Positions 50,505 to 62,140 of a stretch of 64,000 bases of DNA are shown here, in pieces. The stretch is taken from assembly GCF_003667275.1 (NCBI RefSeq), contig NZ_RCNV01000004.1, positions 62,001 through 126,000 of the forward strand. The letters run 5' to 3'. The notes below the pieces were generated by a model. That model was not told the origin of the DNA. It was given only the letters and a program-made list of their open reading frames with translations, and did not search any database. Position 1 is the first letter of the stretch. Every line of letters begins with the position of its first letter. The translations under genes and the position numbers were made by a program. Origin of the DNA: Mesonia aquimarina (lineage in GTDB: Bacteria > Bacteroidota > Bacteroidia > Flavobacteriales > Flavobacteriaceae).

Positions 50505-50539
50505 AAAAAGGAGATTAGAAAATCGCTAAATCTCCTTTT
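50505..50539 (+). terminator. Terminator of acs
   Basis: AAAAAGGAGATT (50505-50516) pairs with AATCTCCTTTT (50529-50539), then T-rich. The downstream arm lies within the 3' end of the convergent tsaC gene. Confidence 0.75.
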
Positions 50540-51135
50540 CCTTTTCTTATAACTTCGGGTTCACCTGTAGTCAAATCAATCACTGTAGAAGCAACGTTAT
50601 CACCAAAACCACCATCCACAACAATATCAACCAACTTATCCCATTTTTCAGCTATCAATTCCGGATCAGTTGTGTATTCTATAACCTCATCATTATCTTT
50701 TATAGAAGTTGAGACAATAGGATTTCCGAGAGCGCTTACTATTGCTTTGCTTATAGAGTTGTCAGGAATACGAATTCCTACTGTTTTTTTCTTTTTAAAA
50801 ACCGATGGTAATGTATTGCTGCCGGGTAAAATAAATGTATATGGACCGGGAAGATTTCTTTTTAAAATTTTAAACGTCTGGTTATCGATCTGCTTTGCGT
50901 ATTCTGAAAGGTTACTTAAGTCTTCGCAAATAAAAGAAAAATTAGCTTTCTCTAATTTTACGCCTTTAATTTTTGCTATTTTCTCTAAGGCTGAATTATT
51001 TGTAATATCACAGCCTAAACCATACACAGTATCGGTTGGGTAAATTACCAACCCTCCTTTTTTTAAAACATCAACTACCTTTTTTATTGCTTTTGGAGAA
51101 GGGTTTTCTTCATAAATTTTGATCAATTCTGCCAT
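50515..51135 (-). CDS. tsaC: L-threonylcarbamoyladenylate synthase
   Basis: 206-residue YrdC/Sua5-type enzyme making threonylcarbamoyl-AMP from threonine, bicarbonate and ATP for t6A37 in tRNA. Family motifs: KKGGLVIYPTDTVYGLGCDI (residues about 25-44), PGPYTFILPGSN (about 95-106), and the SxxR-like VGIRIPDNSISKAIVSALGNPIVSTS region. It is the short TsaC form without the C-terminal Sua5 domain. It starts with MAELIKIYEENPSPKAI. Its stop region overlaps the acs terminator. It is 60 bases upstream of nothing in its own direction, and the TolC gene stop faces away upstream on the same strand. Confidence 0.93.
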   Translation of the reverse strand: MAELIKIYEENPSPKAIKKVVDVLKKGGLVIYPTDTVYGLGCDITNNSALEKIAKIKGVKLEKANFSFICEDLSNLSEYAKQIDNQTFKILKRNLPGPYTFILPGSNTLPSVFKKKKTVGIRIPDNSISKAIVSALGNPIVSTSIKDNDEVIEYTTDPELIAEKWDKLVDIVVDGGFGDNVASTVIDLTTGEPEVIRKGKGDLAIF

Positions 51136-51195
51136 AAGTTTTGGTTTTTAGGAGTGAAAATTTACGAAAAAAAAAGAAGATGAGCTTTGCGTCTT

Positions 51196-52584
51196 TTATA
51201 AATCTAATCTTAAAATTTCAAAAAGTTGAATGGCTGCTTTAAAATATTCATTTTGAATTTTATTTTCTTTTAATTGAGCATCTATTAATTTATTTTCACG
51301 AGAATTTACAAGAAATATAGAACTTTCTCCCACTTCAAATAAGCGGTTTTCTGAAGTAACCATTATTTTACTTTCTTCAACTATTTCTTCAATAATATCA
51401 ATTTGTTCTTGTAAGCTTAAAATTTCTGTTTCTGTAGCCCTAATTTTATTTTTTAATTGCCATTCTTTTTGATCTAATTTATAGGCGGTAGTCTGTCTTT
51501 TTACTTTTGCAATTCGTAAATCACCTCGTTCTTTTCTTAGGAAAAGTGGAAATTCAACTTTTATTCCGGCTTTATAATTGGCCGTGTTTATATAACTGGG
51601 CTCGTCTACTGTCTCTGTTAAGAAATTATATTCAAGATTTACTTTTGGCAAGAGATTATTTTTTCCCAAACGTATATCCAGATCATAGACTTCAAGTTCA
51701 TATTCTAATGAACGTAATTCAGGATGCTCGGAAATATCTTGAGCATTCCCCAAGAAATTTTGTATGCCCAAACTAGTAAAAACTTGTTCTTGTGAAGCCT
51801 GTGGAATGAGTTGGTCTTCTAATTCTACCGGAATTTCTTCTATCCATAAATAATTGGAAAGTGCCAATTTTGCTTTTTGAAGTTTTAATGTAGCTTGTTT
51901 TAGATCTAAATTTCGTGTTCGTAAAAATATTTTTGTTTCAACGGTATCTATGGCCGGGGTTTGCCCAAGTTCACTAGTTCTAGAAACACCATTAAAACGG
52001 ACTTGTGCATTCTTTAAAAAATTCTCAAAAACAGTTTTGTTTTCATAATACAACTTCCAGTCGGCATAAGCCTTGGCCGCTTCAGCTAAAATAGAATTGA
52101 TTAAAATATTTCGTTCAACTTCATTTTTTTCCTGAAGAATTTTTGCTTGTTTTACCGCATTCATTCGTTCATTATACAACAAGCCCCGCAATACATTTAT
52201 ACTTACACCCGCACTCCAAATACCATCGTCAGGTGTTTTATTTTGGGGATTTAAATAAAAGCCTTCATTTTGCTCGTAATCTGCTTTTAGATCGATCCCA
52301 TACCAAGTTGGAATTTTAAAACTCCCCTTCCAAAGCGAATAATACTCGGTGTCTTTAAAGTTTTTTTCCTTTACTCCACCGGATAATTTAGGATCAAAAG
52401 CACCTCTGGCTTTTAACAGTTTTGCTTCAGCCTCCGTAAGCTTTAAATCTGCTTGAGCCACTATAGGATGGTGCATTTTCACCATGGCTAGAAATTCTTC
52501 TAGCGTAAAAACCTCTTCCTGTTCTTGAGCTATAAGCGTTGAAGAAAAAACAAGTGCGATAAAGAGTGAAATTACTTGCTTCAT
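51196..52584 (-). CDS. TolC-family outer-membrane efflux protein
   Basis: 462-residue outer-membrane channel of type I/RND-type exporters. It starts with a signal peptide (MKQVISLFIALVFSSTLIAQ) and then EEVFTLEEFLAMVKMHHPIVAQADL, typical for the family; two repeated long coiled-coil helix pairs (near residues 130-260 and 330-450) are separated by short strands. The last part, SENRLFEVGESSIFLVNSRENKLIDA, is the family-typical end of the second repeat. Its start overlaps the HlyD gene stop by 4 bases. It is the last gene of a TetR-ABC-HlyD-TolC unit and would form the outer-membrane exit of that pump. Confidence 0.88.
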   Translation of the reverse strand: MKQVISLFIALVFSSTLIAQEQEEVFTLEEFLAMVKMHHPIVAQADLKLTEAEAKLLKARGAFDPKLSGGVKEKNFKDTEYYSLWKGSFKIPTWYGIDLKADYEQNEGFYLNPQNKTPDDGIWSAGVSINVLRGLLYNERMNAVKQAKILQEKNEVERNILINSILAEAAKAYADWKLYYENKTVFENFLKNAQVRFNGVSRTSELGQTPAIDTVETKIFLRTRNLDLKQATLKLQKAKLALSNYLWIEEIPVELEDQLIPQASQEQVFTSLGIQNFLGNAQDISEHPELRSLEYELEVYDLDIRLGKNNLLPKVNLEYNFLTETVDEPSYINTANYKAGIKVEFPLFLRKERGDLRIAKVKRQTTAYKLDQKEWQLKNKIRATETEILSLQEQIDIIEEIVEESKIMVTSENRLFEVGESSIFLVNSRENKLIDAQLKENKIQNEYFKAAIQLFEILRLDL

Positions 52585-53951
52585 TTTTTCAAATTTGACT
52601 TGTATACATCGTTATTAATCTCGTCCTTTTTCTTATAATAATTAGGAGGAAACCCGTTTAGTTGACGCCAAATTTCATACCACACAGGCACATCGTCTAA
52701 TAAGGCTAATGTTCTTGCTCCAGAACCAACGCGCAAATCCTTTGGCCAGTCATAATCACTATTATGGTCTGGTGACAATAAAACTCTATACTTACCATTA
52801 CTACTTATAAAGTTCTCTATAGCAACAACTTCTGCTCCGTAGGTTCCGTAAGAAGCATTTGGCCAGCCACTAAATACAATTGCAGGCCAACCATCAAATT
52901 GAACTCTAACATGATCTCCAATTTGTAATAATGGCAAATCTATAGGTCTTACGTAGGTTTCTACAGCAATCTGATAATTTGAAGGCATTATATTGACCAG
53001 TTTTTCACCTTCCTTAAAAGTTTCTCCGATACCCGAAATTAATGCTTTATTAATGTAACCATCTTGAGGTGCTTTTATATAATACATCCCTCTTCTTACC
53101 TCATAATTACTTCGCGAATTTTCAAGTTTAGAAACTTGTGCTTCTGTATCATTTAATGATGATAATGTTGAAGAAACCTCGCTTTCGGTTTTACTGATTT
53201 TATTTTCATATTCCGCCTCAATTCTATTGATTTCCATTTGAGCGTTTAACAGCTCATTTTCACTCGTTAGCAATTTATTTTCTAAATCAATTACTTTGGC
53301 TTGAGCCTCTTGAAGTTTAGACTGTTTAATTTCATAATCTAATCTAGACTTCAACCCCTCTTCGTAAAGTGATTCAATTCGATCAAACTGATTTTCCGCG
53401 ATTGACTGGTTTACTCTTGCTGCTTCTAACGCAATACTATCGCTTTTAATCTTTAAGCGAGCTTGTTGTAATTTATTTCTTGTTTGTTTTAATTTAAGTC
53501 CTTGTTCTTTTCGTAAAGCCTGTAATTGATTTCTTAATGCATTTACTTTCTCTTGATAAGATGATGCAGATTGATTTTTTGAATTAATCTGACTATCTGT
53601 TCTTTCAATTAAATTTGGATCAAAATATTCACTTTTTACTTCTGAAATATGCAAAATTGTATCTCCTTTATTTACAAAATCCCCTTCACTTACATACCAT
53701 TTTTCAATCCTCCCAGGAATTGGAGATTGGATAGTTTGCGGGCGCTGCTCCGGTCTTAAAGTTGTAACATAACCATTACCTTGGATTGTTTGTGTCCAAG
53801 GTAAAAACAGTAAGATGACTAAAAATATAGCTACTCCCAGCATAATTTTAGCAATAAAATTATGCAAATTTCTATCTACTATAGATGAGTAGGCTTCATA
53901 TTTAGAGAAATTTACCTCTGCATCTACTTCGCTATTCGATAAATTAAGCAT
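52581..53951 (-). CDS. HlyD-family membrane fusion protein
   Basis: 456-residue periplasmic adaptor of a type I secretion or efflux system. It has a cytosolic N terminus, one membrane helix (IMLGVAIFLVILLFLPWTQT, residues about 36-55), a lipoyl-like half-motif GRIEKWYVSEGDFVNKGDTI, a long coiled coil (about residues 120-290, rich in Glu, Gln and Lys), then a second half with KAPQDGYINKALISGIGETF and a beta-barrel domain. It is larger than drug-efflux adaptors and similar to HlyD/LktD in layout. It overlaps the ABC gene by 8 bases and the TolC gene by 4, so the three are translated as one operon. Confidence 0.9.
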   Translation of the reverse strand: MLNLSNSEVDAEVNFSKYEAYSSIVDRNLHNFIAKIMLGVAIFLVILLFLPWTQTIQGNGYVTTLRPEQRPQTIQSPIPGRIEKWYVSEGDFVNKGDTILHISEVKSEYFDPNLIERTDSQINSKNQSASSYQEKVNALRNQLQALRKEQGLKLKQTRNKLQQARLKIKSDSIALEAARVNQSIAENQFDRIESLYEEGLKSRLDYEIKQSKLQEAQAKVIDLENKLLTSENELLNAQMEINRIEAEYENKISKTESEVSSTLSSLNDTEAQVSKLENSRSNYEVRRGMYYIKAPQDGYINKALISGIGETFKEGEKLVNIMPSNYQIAVETYVRPIDLPLLQIGDHVRVQFDGWPAIVFSGWPNASYGTYGAEVVAIENFISSNGKYRVLLSPDHNSDYDWPKDLRVGSGARTLALLDDVPVWYEIWRQLNGFPPNYYKKKDEINNDVYKSNLKK

Positions 53952-55557
53952 CTCCGTTTGTATTTAAAGTTATGGTTCTTAAATTTCCTTTGAGCTCACT
54001 TTTACTTGCCAAAATAATAGTACAATCATAAGTTTCTGCATATTGAACCAGGTATTCTATATCACGATCGTACAGAATAAACTCCTCTTCAATCATTAAA
54101 AATTCAGGAAATTTCAATAATTCTCTTATTAATCTAATTTTTTGTACTAAGGCGTGACTTATCAATCTTGTGCCGGGAAAAACGTGTGTATCTACACTTT
54201 GTGATAGGCTATTAATTTCTTCAAGTACTCCAAATTCTTCTAAAAAATCATAAATTACATCCTCTTCTAGCGAAATATTATTTAAGGTTAAATTTTGCCA
54301 AATAGTTCCATCAAATAAATAGTTTGTATTTAATACCAAGCCAATACGCTTTCGGTAATCATCTAAATTGATATTGGAAATCTCTTTTCGGTTTAAGTAA
54401 ATTTTACCATTACGAGTTTTTTTCATTGCAGCCAGAAAATGAAATAATTCATAAATATGTAAATGTTTACCTATTATATTTACAACATCTCCTCTTTCTA
54501 TGGTAAAACTATTTGCTCTATTATAATCTACTTCTAGAGCTTCTACCTGAATTGGAAAAATGGTGTTTTTCTTATTACTGACACGTGCTTTTTTATCGAT
54601 CTTTTTAGAACTTACCTCATCTATTTTCTCTATAGCTGTAACAACATCATAAATGGTTTCTAAGCTAAAACCTATTTTATCTATTGAATTAATAATTAAG
54701 AGAATAATAATTTCTGCAGCCACAAATTGACCGATATTCATTTGTTGCGATAAAACTAAAAGACCACCAATTAACAATAATCCTAGCGTCATAATTACTT
54801 TGAAGCCTACCAGTTGTTTAAACTGATTTTTTACAATTTTAAAATGACGTTGTCTATCATTTAAATAATTTTGGACCAAATCGTTATTTCGCTGTTGTTC
54901 ATATTCGTGGGAAGTATTCTTAAAAGTCTTAAAATTTGCTGCTACCTGCTGTATCCAGAAAGCCACTTTATACTTCTGCTTTGATTCTGAAATGCTTGTA
55001 GCAACAGCTTTCTTCATACTGATTTTGAAAAAAATGTATAACAAAATAACTAACAGCAATCCTAAACCAATAAAAAATGGGTGATAAAAAGATAATAGAA
55101 ATAAGCCAAAAACTATTTGTATAACGGCTGCGGGGAAATCTATCAATAATTTTTCTAATCCCTTCTGTAAAGTCAGTACATCAAAAAATCGATTTGAAAG
55201 TTCCGGTGGAAATGTATTTTCCAGTTCGCGAACTCTAATCTTCGGGAATTTATAAATAAACTCAAAAGCTGCTCTTGCAAAAACTTTTTCTTGTATATTT
55301 TCTAAAATATCTAATTGAAGCACTTGTAAAGCACCCATTAAACCAACTCCTATTGTTACCAATGCAGTTAATAAAATCCAAGAACTAGAAACTTCTGCGC
55401 CTTGAATTAAATTGATAATTGCTTGAATTCCTAACGGAAGTGTAAGACTTATTAAACCTGCAAAAACGGCATAATAAAGTACTTGCAACAAATCGCGGCG
55501 CTCTAACTTTAGTAAGTTGTAAAGTTTATTCCAAGGAGAAATTGAATTACTAGCCAT
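53944..55557 (-). CDS. ABC-exporter-like protein with a degenerate nucleotide-binding domain
   Basis: 537-residue fused membrane and NBD-like protein with about six membrane helices (residues 30-300) and a C-terminal domain (335-537) laid out like an ABC ATPase but lacking its key residues. Where the Walker A GxxGxGKS/T is expected, residues 359-372 read VNIIGKHLHIYELF. The LSGGQ signature position has LISHALVQ (465-472), Walker B has FLMIEEEF in place of LDE, and the H-loop reads ASKSE with Ser in place of His. The D-loop SALD is absent. No N-terminal peptidase C39 domain is present. Domain topology and length (QNLTLNN, NLDDYRKRIGLVLN) are clearly those of the family. It may not hydrolyse ATP. 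Confidence 0.8.
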   Translation of the reverse strand: MASNSISPWNKLYNLLKLERRDLLQVLYYAVFAGLISLTLPLGIQAIINLIQGAEVSSSWILLTALVTIGVGLMGALQVLQLDILENIQEKVFARAAFEFIYKFPKIRVRELENTFPPELSNRFFDVLTLQKGLEKLLIDFPAAVIQIVFGLFLLSFYHPFFIGLGLLLVILLYIFFKISMKKAVATSISESKQKYKVAFWIQQVAANFKTFKNTSHEYEQQRNNDLVQNYLNDRQRHFKIVKNQFKQLVGFKVIMTLGLLLIGGLLVLSQQMNIGQFVAAEIIILLIINSIDKIGFSLETIYDVVTAIEKIDEVSSKKIDKKARVSNKKNTIFPIQVEALEVDYNRANSFTIERGDVVNIIGKHLHIYELFHFLAAMKKTRNGKIYLNRKEISNINLDDYRKRIGLVLNTNYLFDGTIWQNLTLNNISLEEDVIYDFLEEFGVLEEINSLSQSVDTHVFPGTRLISHALVQKIRLIRELLKFPEFLMIEEEFILYDRDIEYLVQYAETYDCTIILASKSELKGNLRTITLNTNGDA

Positions 55558-55560
55558 AAT

Positions 55561-56244
55561 TTAATCAAGTAATTTAAACGTTAAGGTTTGAAAATAGATT
55601 TTAATATGCTCGCAATTTTGCTGATTATTATCGGTTAAATGCGGAAAATGTTGATTTAAAAAATTATGTTTTAACGCTCCTTGTAAAATTGTATTTGCCA
55701 ACATTTTTGGAAACTTAAAATCTGAATTATAGTCAAGAATTAATTGACTTAACCTATCTATTAATCTTCTATAAATAATAAAATATCCATTCTGATTTTC
55801 TTCATCTACATCTTTAGTCTGAAAAATTTTTGAATATTCATGAATTATGATTTGATGTAAAGCAACTTCGTCTATAAAACCAAAACTTTCGTCTTTTTTA
55901 GGATTTTCAGTTATTGCGCTTATTGCTCGACATAAGACTTCTTTTTTGTCGGTTAAGTTATTTGTAGAAAAAACCAACTTATATTCCAACCATCCCCAAT
56001 ACCAGGAAACAAGATAAAGCATAAGCATATGCTTGTTTTCAAAATAACGATAGATAGAACTTTCGTTAGACTGAATTTCTAGGGCTAATTTTTTAAAGGT
56101 AAAACCCTCAATCCCTATTTTATCTATTAATATAATTGAAAACTCTAAGATTCTCCTGCCTAATTTAGAAGACTGCGGATCTTTGATATAGATATTTTCA
56201 GGAATGGTTAACGTTAAACTTGATAGCATGTGACTTAAAAACAA
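55561..56244 (-). CDS. TetR-family transcriptional regulator
   Basis: 227-residue regulator. The HTH lies near residues 30-75: GRRILEFSIILIDKIGIEGF, then FKKLALEIQSNESSIYRYFE (helices 2-3) and NKHMLMLYLVSWYWGWLEYK. The C-terminal ligand-binding part has no recognisable specificity. The N-terminal 25 residues before the HTH are unusual and the start could be at the Met of residue 6. Its stop is 3 bases from the start of the ABC gene, same strand, so it is the first gene of the export operon and probably its repressor. The ligand is unknown. Confidence 0.85.
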   Translation of the reverse strand: MFLSHMLSSLTLTIPENIYIKDPQSSKLGRRILEFSIILIDKIGIEGFTFKKLALEIQSNESSIYRYFENKHMLMLYLVSWYWGWLEYKLVFSTNNLTDKKEVLCRAISAITENPKKDESFGFIDEVALHQIIIHEYSKIFQTKDVDEENQNGYFIIYRRLIDRLSQLILDYNSDFKFPKMLANTILQGALKHNFLNQHFPHLTDNNQQNCEHIKIYFQTLTFKLLD

Positions 56245-56321
56245 AATTACAGCTTACAAAAATAAAAGTATTACTTTCATTTTCAATTTTTGGTAAAAAA
56301 ATAGCATTAATTTAACATTTG

Positions 56322-56549
56322 TTAATGCTGCTTTTTTGAATTATGTTTTTCTACCTCACTTTCTAATTTTAGTACTTTACTACCGTCTTCTTGCATTATA
56401 AGTAAAGCCTTATTACCTTCTTCTCCTTTTCGGGTAATTTTACTGCCGTCAATAGTTTTGCTGATTTCATCTGTATAGGTTTCTTCAACCTTTCCGGTTG
56501 CGGTTCCGTTACCCCATTTCCACTGAACTTTACTTCCTTCTCTTATCAT
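56322..56549 (-). CDS. Small HVA1/DUF2945-type Tudor-domain protein
   Basis: 75-residue protein resembling the hypervirulence-associated TUDOR domain family (DUF2945). MIREGSKVQWKWGNGTATGK and the following VEETYTDEISKTIDGSKITR, then GNKALLIMQEDGSKVLKLES are the family's small beta-barrel: strands around the conserved V-W-W-G and a final Lys-rich tail. Functions of bacterial members are unknown. It is 77 bases upstream of the tetR start and 61 bases below the stop of... the helicase gene that follows it on the same strand begins at 58932, so it is downstream of the helicase gene. Confidence 0.75.
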   Translation of the reverse strand: MIREGSKVQWKWGNGTATGKVEETYTDEISKTIDGSKITRKGEEGNKALLIMQEDGSKVLKLESEVEKHNSKKQH

Positions 56550-56610
56550 TTTTTAGTGAAAAGATAAGAATTTTCAGTCTTACTTAATCTCGGCCTAACA
56601 GAACTTTAAC

Positions 56611-58932
56611 CTATAAAACTTTCAGTTTAGCAAAACGTAAAAGTAATTTTTTTAGTCCGCCTTTTTCAAAGTCTATTTCGGCTTTTTTATCTTGACCAAT
56701 TCCTTCAATATTAATCACCTTCCCTTTACCAAAGCGCATATGCTCTACTTCTTGTCCACTTTGTAATTGTAGCGCAGGTGAATCACTTTTACTTGGTTTT
56801 TCTGCATCGGTTGGTCGTAACCTTCTCATTTTCCGCAATTGTTCTTCGGTAGGTTTATGAGCAGGTGGTGGCGTTCCTTTTTTAGGTTTGTTTTGTCGTA
56901 ATTTACTTTTATCTACTTCGCCAAAAATATCGGAATCTATAAGTGGTTTATATTTATAATCGTCTTGCGGGACCATTAAATCTAAAAACTTTTCGTCTAT
57001 TTCTTCAATAAAACGACTCGGTTCAGCATCTATTAATTTCCCCCAACGGTAGCGTGATTGCGTATACGTAAGATAAGCTTGCTTTTCGGCTCGGGTTAAA
57101 GCCACATAAAATAAACGGCGTTCTTCTTCTAATTCTGAACGTGTATTCATACTCATTCCCGAAGGAAATAAATCTTCTTCCATTCCAACAATATAGACGT
57201 ATGGAAATTCTAGCCCTTTTGCCAAATGAATAGTCATCAGCGCAACGCGATCTTCATCGCCGGTATCTTTATCCATATCGGTTGCTAAAGCGACATCTTC
57301 TAAAAATTCTGATAAGGAACCATCGGCATCGGCGAGTTCTTTTTGTCCTTCCACGAAATCACTCATTCCGTTAAGCAACTCTTCTATATTTTCAATTCGG
57401 GCAATTCCTTCAGGTGTACCGTCTTTTTTTAATTCTTGTAATAAACCTGTTTTTTTAGCTACGGTTTCAGCAACGGTAAACGCATCTTTATTTTCAGCAA
57501 TTAACTGAAAATGCTTAATCATATTCGAAAAATTGGTCAGTTTATTTTTGGTTCCTTTATTTATTTTGAGATCAATTTTTTCAATATTTTCAATGACTTC
57601 AAAAATGGAACGCTTATAATGATTTGCAGCGAGTGAAAGTTTATCCATCGTTGTCGCGCCAATTCCTCTCGCCGGGTAATTAATCACACGTTTTAACGCT
57701 TCCTCATCTTTCGGATTCACAAGCAAACGCAAATACGCCAAAACATCTTTAATTTCTTTACGCTGATAAAATGAAAGTCCACCATAAATTCTATACGGTA
57801 TATCTTTTTTTCGCAACGCATCTTCCATCGCTCTACTTTGCGCATTTGTTCGGTATAAAATCGCAAAATCTCCATTCTGAAGTTGATGTTCCATTTTATT
57901 TTCAAAAATAGAGCTCGCCACAAAACGACCTTCTTCTCCATCGGTTAGCAAACGATTCACAATTATTTTTCCGCCATCTTCATTTTGCGTCCAAACCACT
58001 TTGTCTAATTTGGTTTGATTTTTATCGATAACTGAATTTGCTGCGTTGACAATATTTTTTGTAGACCGATAATTTTGTTCTAGGCGATACATTTCAACGC
58101 CATCATAATCACGCTGAAAGTTTAAAATATTATTGATATTCGCTCCACGGAAAGCATAAATACTTTGTGCATCATCGCCAACAACACAAATATTTTGAAA
58201 CTTATCGCTCAAGGCTTTCACAATTAAATATTGCGAGTGATTGGTATCTTGATACTCGTCTACCAAAATGTAGCGAAAACGATTTTGGTATTTCTGAAGC
58301 ACTTCCGGAAAACGATTTAACAATTCATTTGTCTTCAATAATAAATCATCAAAATCCATCGCACCGGCTTTAAAACAACGGTCCACGTAATTTTGGTAAA
58401 TTTCACCCAACCGCGGACGTTTAGCCATCGCATCTGCCTCTTGCAGTTCTCCATTTTGGAAATATGCTTTTACGGTAATCAAACTATTTTTATAGGAAGA
58501 AATTCGAGAATAAACCTGTTTGTATTTATAAACATCTTTATCTAAGCCCATTTCTTTGATAATCGCAGAAATTAAACGTTGCGAATCTTGCGTATCGTAA
58601 ATTGTAAAATTGGAAGGATAACCTAATTTATCAGCTTCAAAACGAAGAATCTTCGCAAAAATAGAATGGAAAGTTCCCATCCATAAATTTTTTGCTTCGC
58701 TATTTCCGACAATACTCGCGATACGACTTTTCATTTCGCGAGCTGCTTTGTTGGTAAAAGTAAGCGACAAAATATTAAACGGATCTACACCTTTACTCAT
58801 TAAATAAGCAATTCTATAAGTAAGCACTCTGGTTTTACCGGAGCCCGCGCCGGCAATAACAATTAAAGGTCCTTCTTGATGCAATACGGGCGCTAATTGC
58901 GCTTCATTTAACTCTGCTAAATACTTTTCCAA
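56611..58932 (-). CDS. UvrD/PcrA-type DNA helicase
   Basis: 773-residue superfamily 1 3'-5' helicase in DNA repair and replication restart. Motifs: Q-motif region with LNEAQLAPVLHQEGPLIVIAG, Walker A GAGSGKTRVLTYRI (residue about 28), Ia FTNKAAREMKSRI, II ILVDEYQDTNHSQ (about 225), III GDDAQSIYAFRGANI, IV LEQNYRSTKNIVNAAN, V TIHLAKGLEFPYVYIVGMEE (about 570), VI VALTRAEKQAYL. The C-terminal tail is basic, followed by a Tudor-like end (SGQEVEHMRFGKGKVINIEG), a C-terminal domain known to bind RNA polymerase in PcrA. PcrA versus UvrD is not separable in this phylum. Confidence 0.93.
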   Translation of the reverse strand: MEKYLAELNEAQLAPVLHQEGPLIVIAGAGSGKTRVLTYRIAYLMSKGVDPFNILSLTFTNKAAREMKSRIASIVGNSEAKNLWMGTFHSIFAKILRFEADKLGYPSNFTIYDTQDSQRLISAIIKEMGLDKDVYKYKQVYSRISSYKNSLITVKAYFQNGELQEADAMAKRPRLGEIYQNYVDRCFKAGAMDFDDLLLKTNELLNRFPEVLQKYQNRFRYILVDEYQDTNHSQYLIVKALSDKFQNICVVGDDAQSIYAFRGANINNILNFQRDYDGVEMYRLEQNYRSTKNIVNAANSVIDKNQTKLDKVVWTQNEDGGKIIVNRLLTDGEEGRFVASSIFENKMEHQLQNGDFAILYRTNAQSRAMEDALRKKDIPYRIYGGLSFYQRKEIKDVLAYLRLLVNPKDEEALKRVINYPARGIGATTMDKLSLAANHYKRSIFEVIENIEKIDLKINKGTKNKLTNFSNMIKHFQLIAENKDAFTVAETVAKKTGLLQELKKDGTPEGIARIENIEELLNGMSDFVEGQKELADADGSLSEFLEDVALATDMDKDTGDEDRVALMTIHLAKGLEFPYVYIVGMEEDLFPSGMSMNTRSELEEERRLFYVALTRAEKQAYLTYTQSRYRWGKLIDAEPSRFIEEIDEKFLDLMVPQDDYKYKPLIDSDIFGEVDKSKLRQNKPKKGTPPPAHKPTEEQLRKMRRLRPTDAEKPSKSDSPALQLQSGQEVEHMRFGKGKVINIEGIGQDKKAEIDFEKGGLKKLLLRFAKLKVL

Positions 58933-61234: not shown

Positions 61235-62140
61235 TTATTTAAGCTCATTTTCCTTATGTTCTAGTGTTTTTTTATCGGCATAATCAAAACCTTGTTGCCA
61301 CCACTCTGTCATCAGTTTTTTATTGAATACTAAAGAATTTTCAGTAAGCCTACTCGGCGTGTAATACAAGTTCAAAATTACATCTCTATTTACGGCGGCT
61401 AGTTTTCCTTCAATTATGTTGCTACGCTCTATTTGGTCTATCACAAAACCGTATAAATTGACCATTAATGAGAATGGATTTTTACCTAAAACTTTATTAT
61501 GTGCCATATTTTCTGACTCTAGAATAATGGCATCTATCTCTGTTGCACCTCTTCTAATGGCTTCGCGTATGGGTACAACACTACCAAAACCACCATCGGC
61601 ATATTCGCAATTATTCTTGTTTACTAAACTCATAAACGGCACATAATTACAAGAAATCCAAATCCAATCGCAAAATTCTTTGTAGCTAAAATCGTTTATA
61701 CTTTTATATTCAATTTTATTTTTAGTTAAGTTAGAGACGGTAACAACAATATCTTTTGTTCTTGCTTTTGCAACTTCAAATTCTTCTTCAGTAATATTTT
61801 TTTCAATTAATTTTCGCAAGTTTTTACTCTCTCCAAAAGTGCGCTTACTTTTTAGAAATTGTAATATTGTGTTTAAATAATTTATGGTTACATATTCTCG
61901 ATCGTCTTTATGTTTTATAATAAACGGATTTAAACTAAAAATACTGTTCTGCTTAACGTTGGTATAAATATGATAGAGTTTATCAATTTTTCCGGTTGCC
62001 AAATGCGTCAGTAATAAACTGCCGGTAGACGATCCTATAAACATATCGTAATTACGTTTTTGCACTCGAATTAAATGTTCGGCTACGCCACCGGCATAAG
62101 CACCTTTACTTCCCCCTCCTGAAATGACTAATGCACGCAT
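61235..62140 (-). CDS. Patatin-like phospholipase family protein
   Basis: 301-residue lipid acyl hydrolase candidate. The oxyanion hole is in VISGGGSKGAYAGGVAEHL (residues about 5-23), the nucleophile Ser in FIGSSTGSLLLTHL (GxSxG, about 35-48) and the catalytic Asp in CEYADGGFGSVVPI (DGG, about 178-191), so a full Ser-Asp dyad is present. It has no signal peptide, suggesting a cytosolic enzyme or one associated with the inner membrane, unlike the large outer-membrane PlpD forms. Its start shares one base with the stop of the M1 peptidase gene (TAATG), so the two are translationally coupled. Confidence 0.88.
   Translation of the reverse strand: MRALVISGGGSKGAYAGGVAEHLIRVQKRNYDMFIGSSTGSLLLTHLATGKIDKLYHIYTNVKQNSIFSLNPFIIKHKDDREYVTINYLNTILQFLKSKRTFGESKNLRKLIEKNITEEEFEVAKARTKDIVVTVSNLTKNKIEYKSINDFSYKEFCDWIWISCNYVPFMSLVNKNNCEYADGGFGSVVPIREAIRRGATEIDAIILESENMAHNKVLGKNPFSLMVNLYGFVIDQIERSNIIEGKLAAVNRDVILNLYYTPSRLTENSLVFNKKLMTEWWQQGFDYADKKTLEHKENELK

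Follow-up and report, generated by a model that had tools for sequence, protein, structure and literature searches.

The ABC exporter gene at positions 53944 to 55557 (reverse strand) of a 64,000-nucleotide stretch of the Mesonia aquimarina genome (RefSeq assembly GCF_003667275.1, contig NZ_RCNV01000004.1, forward-strand positions 62,001 to 126,000; this whole stretch is called the window) belongs to a widespread family of HlyD/TolC-linked ABC exporters in which the ATPase motifs of the nucleotide-binding domain (NBD) are lost by degrees, and in which one clade has no NBD at all. As far as comparison of sequences can show, the membrane domain and its intracellular loop 1 are conserved across the family, the linkage to hlyD and tolC holds in most loci, and many members look incapable of ATP hydrolysis. 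We propose, with confidence slightly short of even, that an ABC exporter has here turned into the ion-gradient-driven engine of a tripartite HlyD-TolC pump, convergent with SbmA; both the energy source and the substrate of this pump are things that we infer. The gene contains the following:

53944..55557, reverse strand: ABC exporter half-transporter with a degenerate NBD; intact open reading frame (ORF) of 537 aa
54568..55557, reverse strand: transmembrane domain (TMD), residues 1-330; six helices predicted from hydropathy; conservation above that of the NBD
54646..54738, reverse strand: sixth transmembrane helix (TM6) and its cytosolic extension, residues 274-304; the acidic residues E282, D293, E300 and D304 share one helical face
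53968..54555, reverse strand: degenerate NBD, residues 335-530, placed by alignment to NBDs
54451..54471, reverse strand: Walker A position, residues 363-369 (GKHLHIY); P-loop gone
54151..54165, reverse strand: ABC signature position, residues 465-469 (LISHA), from the alignment column
54082..54099, reverse strand: Walker B position, residues 487-492 (LMIEEE), from the alignment column
54001..54006, reverse strand: H-loop position, residues 518-519 (SK), from the alignment column

From the letters alone, an earlier note on this DNA had taken the C-terminal domain (residues about 335-537) for a degenerate ABC ATPase, and had proposed a Pfam search and an alignment of homologues. Both were run. 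The protein matches ABC_membrane (PF00664) at 35.2 bits, above the cut-off of 28, and ABC_tran at 20.5 bits, under the cut-off of 25. Aligned to canonical NBDs, the NBDs of the window clade reach an hhalign probability of 99.7% over 169 columns. Hence, the domain is an altered NBD, as had been claimed, and its replacement by an unrelated domain is ruled out. We read the motif columns by alignment to L082, an intact exporter of the same genome. The Walker A column is GKHLH-IY in the window protein and GQSGSGKS in L082, and the former does not fit GxxGxGKS/T; the Q-loop column reads GLVLNTN against GLVTQDS, with the Gln gone, and the signature column LISHALV against KLSGGQK, with LSGGQ gone. The missing P-loop and the LISHALVQ at the signature had thus been rightly recognized. 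The EEE reported at Walker B was right in part: in FLMIEEEF against IMILDEAT the Asp is replaced, both the D and the E columns being Glu, but the catalytic-Glu column still holds its Glu. Similarly, the H-loop (ILASKS against IVIAHR) has no His at either residue, but the column falls on Lys519, and the Ser that had been named as the substitute is the preceding residue, Ser518. The degenerate motifs are conserved: the loss of all five is common to the nearest relatives (L001-L010, L089 and L091). Three further proteins of this genome match at E 0.001; all are exporters whose motifs are near normal (LSSGQ in one, and in another an Asp in place of the catalytic Glu). The NBDs of ABC dimers pair as a head-to-tail sandwich. 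Since Walker A and the signature are both lost, we infer that the window version could build no complete ATP site, either in a homodimer or in a heterodimer with an intact half, and the members without an NBD cannot form any ATP site at all.

How far this loss extends was assessed in a family set assembled in steps. One scan confirmed 559 relatives, and the best 80 of these 559 loci were kept (L001-L080, belonging to Flavobacteriaceae and other Bacteroidota). Matches were found in 30 genomes when 60 relatives were searched at E 1e-40, and in 97 of 395 genomes sampled across the phylum at E 1e-25, the genome of the window being counted in both cases. With 40 further stretches and four plasmid loci added, the final set comprises 174 non-identical proteins, window included, from Bacteroidota and one sphingomonad. 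These rows were gathered by similarity to the window protein, so they are a non-random sample in which many are close to each other. The canonical comparison has 43 rows: 23 of T1SS type together with exporters of the genome itself (the 20 of 30 TIGR03375 loci that passed a motif filter, plus three own exporters) and 20 of NHLM type, for which all 20 loci of this outgroup were used.

LSGGQ occurs in none of the 174 rows, so that no family member has the full motif set; LSTGQ occurs in two, both deep. The Walker-B DE pair is found in 14, the H-loop His in 10 and the Q-loop Gln in 11, while a Lys stands in the Walker-A column of 152 and six lack the NBD. Laid out on a tree of 83 membrane domains, the losses are graded. 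The deep members (L153-L160, L174 and L177-L181) retain Walker A and the Walker-B DE, with the His in 10 of the 14; in L011-L080, GxxxxGKS/T is retained in 69 of 70 and little else is. Most flavobacterial members keep Walker A, but it is lost as well in the window clade (Mesonia, Salegentibacter and Zunongwangia), in L167, in Aureibacter (L218) and in Novosphingobium (L217). At the end of the series, six genomes from five genera and three families (L142-L147) have no NBD and encode only a membrane domain of 332-339 aa (L144, with a stray aligned letter in the NBD, was scored by hand). These short ORFs sit in TMD-HlyD-TolC operons, four of them overlapping hlyD by 8 bases and two ending 40 and 66 bases ahead of it, and the four that were run against Pfam match ABC_membrane at 32.8-38.9 bits.

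Parsimony on a quick tree counts five changes for the loss of Walker A. Joining the window clade and the NBD-less clade into one was rejected by the approximately unbiased (AU) test (p 7.9e-5). The same test did not reject three further joins: L167 with L218 (p 0.56), L167 with the window clade (p 0.26), and L218 with the window clade (p 0.41). Because only the first join is rejected, our claim, which depends on these trees, is of two separate losses, one in the window clade and one in the NBD-less clade, and not of five. The family also seems to cross phyla, since the plasmid pNL2 of Novosphingobium aromaticivorans (L217:3611-7836) has the same ABC-HlyD-TolC arrangement with an NBD lacking Walker A, and the membrane domain also finds matches on further plasmids of sphingomonads. 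Some members (L148-L154, L156-L158, L160, L177-L178, L181 and L216) are longer, about 680-830 aa, because they are extended at the N terminus; relative to the window protein, the membrane domain of L148 is set back by about 145 residues. The extension may be a C39-like remnant, although Pfam named no C39-like domain in L148, the only extended member run. Some of the extended proteins carry His-rich linkers.

The membrane domain is mostly the more constant part of these proteins. N122, R123, D126, K132 and K195 are present in 174 of 174 rows, H238 in 173, and position 282 is Glu in 173 and Asp in one; the six NBD-less members retain all seven residues. R123 and D126 are common in canonical exporters, but K132, K195, H238 and E282 are not. 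Intracellular loop 1 (residues 115-137) likewise ranks with the most conserved stretches, NBD-less members included, with a mean majority fraction of 0.90. Acidic residues also accumulate in TM6: of positions 282, 293, 300 and 304, four are acidic in 165 rows, three in six and two in three. The canonical rows have at most one (the 23 T1SS-type and own exporters) or at most two (the 20 NHLM-type exporters), and by position 0, 8, 2 and 24 of the 43 are acidic. The deepest near-canonical rows, L159 and L180, have two of the four acids, and the near-canonical L158 has all four. Remote alignment sets E282 on a TM6 Phe of P-glycoprotein and D293 on MsbA K299, a substrate-chamber residue according to PMC8660845. 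The acids would line the cavity, as judged from these alignments. For Glu314, the TM6 residue of LmrA, the equivalence of MsbA N346 and LmrA H353 in PMC4979069 gives no more than a rough position, near residues 300-304, and we did not use it as evidence of identity.

Selection still acts on both domains. In 244 of 250 pairs of canonical exporters the NBDs have a higher identity than the TMDs; in the family this is so in 25 of 78 deep pairs, in 0 of 2398 pairs within L011-L080 and in 0 of 71 window-clade pairs (pairs with TMD identity of 95% or more were excluded). We ran dN/dS on 14 pairs, of which L001-L002 gave no dS and several others had dS above 1. Across 11 pairs excluding the window it was 0.018-0.112 for the NBD and 0.02-0.045 for the TMD, and the two window pairs, in which dS is saturated, gave 0.117 and 0.136 for the NBD and 0.04 for the TMD. 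The NBD thus appears, from these substitution ratios, to be under weaker yet real purifying selection. Frames are open in L001-L010 (530-534 aa) and unbroken in six same-genus loci (535-552 aa), whose single TAA is the natural stop. The ABC gene and hlyD, the two genes scored here, also co-occur, both being present in the same 10 and both missing in the same six of 16 same-genus genomes, the window's own included. The sole sign of decay observed in the ABC gene is in L179 (1634-3507), where the homologue is split over two frames by a frameshift or an assembly error.

In the window the operon order is TetR-ABC-HlyD-TolC, with the other genes as follows:

52581..53951, reverse strand: HlyD-family periplasmic adaptor, 456 aa; shares 8 bases with the ABC gene (53944-53951)
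51196..52584, reverse strand: TolC-family outer-membrane factor, 462 aa; shares 4 bases with hlyD (52581-52584)
55561..56244, reverse strand: TetR-family regulator; TetR_N at 22.5 bits, slightly under the cut-off of 24; lies upstream of the ABC gene, 3 bases away

The ABC frame has no internal stop, so it is intact as described before; it had also been said to overlap its neighbors by 8 and 4 bases, but only the former is an overlap of the ABC gene, the latter lying between hlyD and tolC, and a 3-base gap without overlap separates it from tetR. All 41 non-redundant loci of L001-L080 have hlyD and tolC, and 37 have tetR upstream; other gene families recur in 7 of these loci at most. For these loci we therefore reject the idea that a conserved substrate or partner gene accompanies the operon. 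In 40 more distant loci, homologues of the window HlyD were found in 37, of TolC in 36 and of TetR in 13, and one of the six NBD-less loci has a TetR gene.

A few observations concern the surroundings of these operons. The one in the window is flanked by uvrD-like and Sua5-like genes (50515-58932), as it is in L001-L005, L009 and L010; in the Zunongwangia loci L006-L008 these flanking genes were not found within the stretches examined. An imperfect 16-nt inverted repeat upstream of tetR (56295-56337) is a candidate terminator or TetR operator. Between the UvrD-like helicase gene and tetR lies a small ORF (about 56330-56550, reverse strand), presumably similar to a short DUF2945 protein. The tolC homologue of a Mesonia metagenome-assembled genome (L005:8861-10378) is split into two overlapping ORFs by a frameshift or an assembly error, and HlyD and TolC homologues were not found within the stretches examined in L155, L174 and L179, which share one family code.

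How could such an exporter work? Another NBD, a scaffold role and some other drive had been offered as options by the earlier note, and the evidence leans to the last of these, short of proof. We favor an ion-gradient-driven exporter because no complete ATP site seems possible and because there are precedents in MsbA, LmrA and SbmA. MsbA without its NBD continues pH-gradient-dependent drug efflux (PMC4979069), proton-coupled transport by LmrA requires the TM6 residue Glu314 (PMC6155054), and SbmA descends from ABC transporters, lacks an NBD, is driven by protons and has a glutamate ladder (PMC13316013). By analogy, the membrane domain would still export a substrate from the cytosol or the inner leaflet into the HlyD-TolC conduit, its alternating access being driven by an ion gradient, most likely of protons. 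Protonation and deprotonation along one TM6 face (E282, D293, E300 and D304) would stand in for the binding and hydrolysis of ATP, and the leftover NBD could serve as a non-catalytic dimerization or gating piece. Such a role would explain why purifying selection on it is weaker yet real, and why it is missing from the NBD-less clade. The TetR gene in flavobacterial-type operons and the lack of a recurrent neighbor suggest small-molecule efflux rather than dedicated protein secretion.

Several results weigh against this proposal. The TM6 acids are also present in deep members that retain Walker A, Walker B and the His, so by themselves they are no marker of a switch of energy source. Position 304 is acidic in 19 of 20 NHLM-type exporters, which makes D304 probably ancestral, to judge by that outgroup, and position 300 is non-acidic in 4 of the 6 NBD-less members. 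The clustering on one face (chance 0.004) was tested post hoc. Most flavobacterial relatives have a good Walker A, so ATP binding may be important there, and L148, which has Walker A, passes the Pfam ABC_tran cut-off at 60.7 bits. Loop 1, the usual NBD contact, is conserved in NBD-less members, where it could receive a cytosolic partner, whereas SbmA has lost its coupling helices (PMC13316013), and L142, one of the six NBD-less loci, has an intact NBD gene 1.3 kb downstream of its tolC. Finally, MsbA without the NBD is less efficient in efflux (PMC4979069) and does not sustain lipid A transport in cells (PMC8660845).

Alternatively, the membrane domain could be a gated conduit into HlyD-TolC, through which substrate leaves down its own gradient, and the NBD remnant would be its gate, or an ATP sensor where Walker A survives. 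The persistence of Walker A in L011-L080 despite the lost signature and His, together with an NBD dN/dS far below 1, would suit such a gate, and degenerate sites of known transporters retain ATP without turnover (PMC7756269). We regard it as unlikely, as it leaves unexplained the near-invariant TM6 acids, rare in canonical exporters, and the absence of any gate in NBD-less members. It is also conceivable that the membrane domain is powered in trans by a separate intact NBD, encoded at another place in the genome, that docks on the conserved intracellular loops. The invariance of N122, R123, D126 and K132 in loop 1 of NBD-less members is the main argument for such a partner, and all six NBD-less genomes are rich in other ABC proteins. 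One locus even offers a candidate, the NBD gene of L142 (11019-11864, ABC_tran 76.8 bits), placed after a histidine kinase gene, but because it overlaps by 4 bases the gene of a 266-aa probable permease (the pair at L241:1519-3164), it looks, from this arrangement, as if it belonged to another transporter. No ABC-type NBD is among the P-loop ORFs of the remaining five NBD-less loci (that of L143 is an AAA_21-type ATPase). Across the six genomes, the strongest NBD matches come from full-length exporters, with identities of 29% or less, and shorter frames (233-482 aa) match at best at E 1.3e-12, with up to 34% identity. A detached family NBD was not found in them with one family NBD query at E 1e-8, which puts generic NBDs beyond its reach. 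Members with an attached degenerate NBD would, in addition, need to displace it. Powering in trans is thus quite unlikely in our judgment.

The protein could instead be no transporter, and act as a scaffold or envelope sensor that holds HlyD-TolC together or signals to TetR. The energy source of the membrane domain is after all a deduction, and the lack of a recurrent neighbor gene beyond the operon suits this role. Yet the six-helix exporter topology and the family-specific charged residues are what is most constrained, and the constant TolC-type factor points to efflux, which makes a scaffold or sensor improbable. As for the recent decay of an ordinary ABC pump in the window strain, the earlier note had argued that the gene is maintained, while allowing that an intact Walker A and B in close relatives, together with signs of relaxed selection such as frameshifts, would speak for decay. 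Relatives at 41-47% identity do retain Walker A, and the deep relative L179 is split, but the Walker-A-bearing relatives also lack the signature and the His, so that this is not the recent decay of a single strain. Given that the window-type loss is common to records named Mesonia, Salegentibacter and Zunongwangia, together with the open frames, the low dN/dS and the joint retention or loss of the ABC gene and hlyD, we reject recent decay, to which we give hardly any credence, and agree that the gene is maintained.

If the proposal of an ion-gradient-driven pump is true, the membrane domain of an ABC exporter can shed its ATPase in nature and still run a whole-envelope pump. With the graded homologues one could also test whether ABC exporter membrane domains are themselves coupled to ions, as has been claimed for LmrA and MsbA. 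There is a consequence for annotation, too, since plasmid copies are labelled "ABC transporter ATP-binding protein" though many members look incapable of hydrolysis from their motifs.

In the literature searched we found no description of an HlyD/TolC-linked ABC family with degenerate NBDs, which is weak evidence as most subscription papers lay outside its scope. Compared with known systems, the family resembles the T1SS and NHLM exporters (TIGR03375 LssB and TIGR03796 NHLM_micro_ABC1) in having a homologous TMD and NBD, an HlyD and a TolC-type factor in one operon. It differs from them in bit scores of the window protein far under the curated cut-offs (96.7 against 693.1 and 95.9 against 853.3, respectively), in the lost ATPase motifs, in its own charged TMD residues, in the TetR of flavobacterial-type loci and in the lack of a recurrent substrate gene. 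CFTR, TM287/288 and TAP are examples of exporters with one degenerate site. Like the present family, such exporters have non-consensus ATP-site motifs in a maintained transporter (PMC7756269 and PMC8277102), but they retain one working site per dimer, whereas both sites of a homodimer would be dead here. MsbA-MD and LmrA-MD, which perform pH-gradient-dependent drug efflux (PMC4979069) and pass ion currents (PMC6155054), respectively, are likewise exporter membrane domains without an NBD; they are artificial laboratory truncations, whereas the loss here is natural. The nearest published kind that we found are the SbmA/BacA-like transporters (SLiPT), which share an ABC-derived membrane domain, conserved acidic residues and, with our NBD-less members, the loss of the NBD. 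However, SbmA is an importer with extra TM0 helices, without coupling helices and traced to YddA (PMC13316013), whereas our family keeps loop 1, is linked to HlyD-TolC and has a degenerate NBD in most members, that of the window included. Up to E 1, neither the window protein nor any of seven relatives hits the SbmA_BacA Pfam model; what they hit is ABC_membrane. The four acidic TM6 positions on one face, oriented by remote alignment, may or may not correspond to the glutamate ladder of SbmA. We suggest, tentatively and with rather more doubt than conviction, that nature has here, for a second time and independently, turned an ATP-driven ABC exporter into a transporter driven by an ion gradient, within a trans-envelope HlyD-TolC pump, and with living intermediates. 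These would range from members in which the signature is broken but Walker A, Walker B and the H-loop His persist, through members with Walker A and little else, to those with a motif-less NBD or none.

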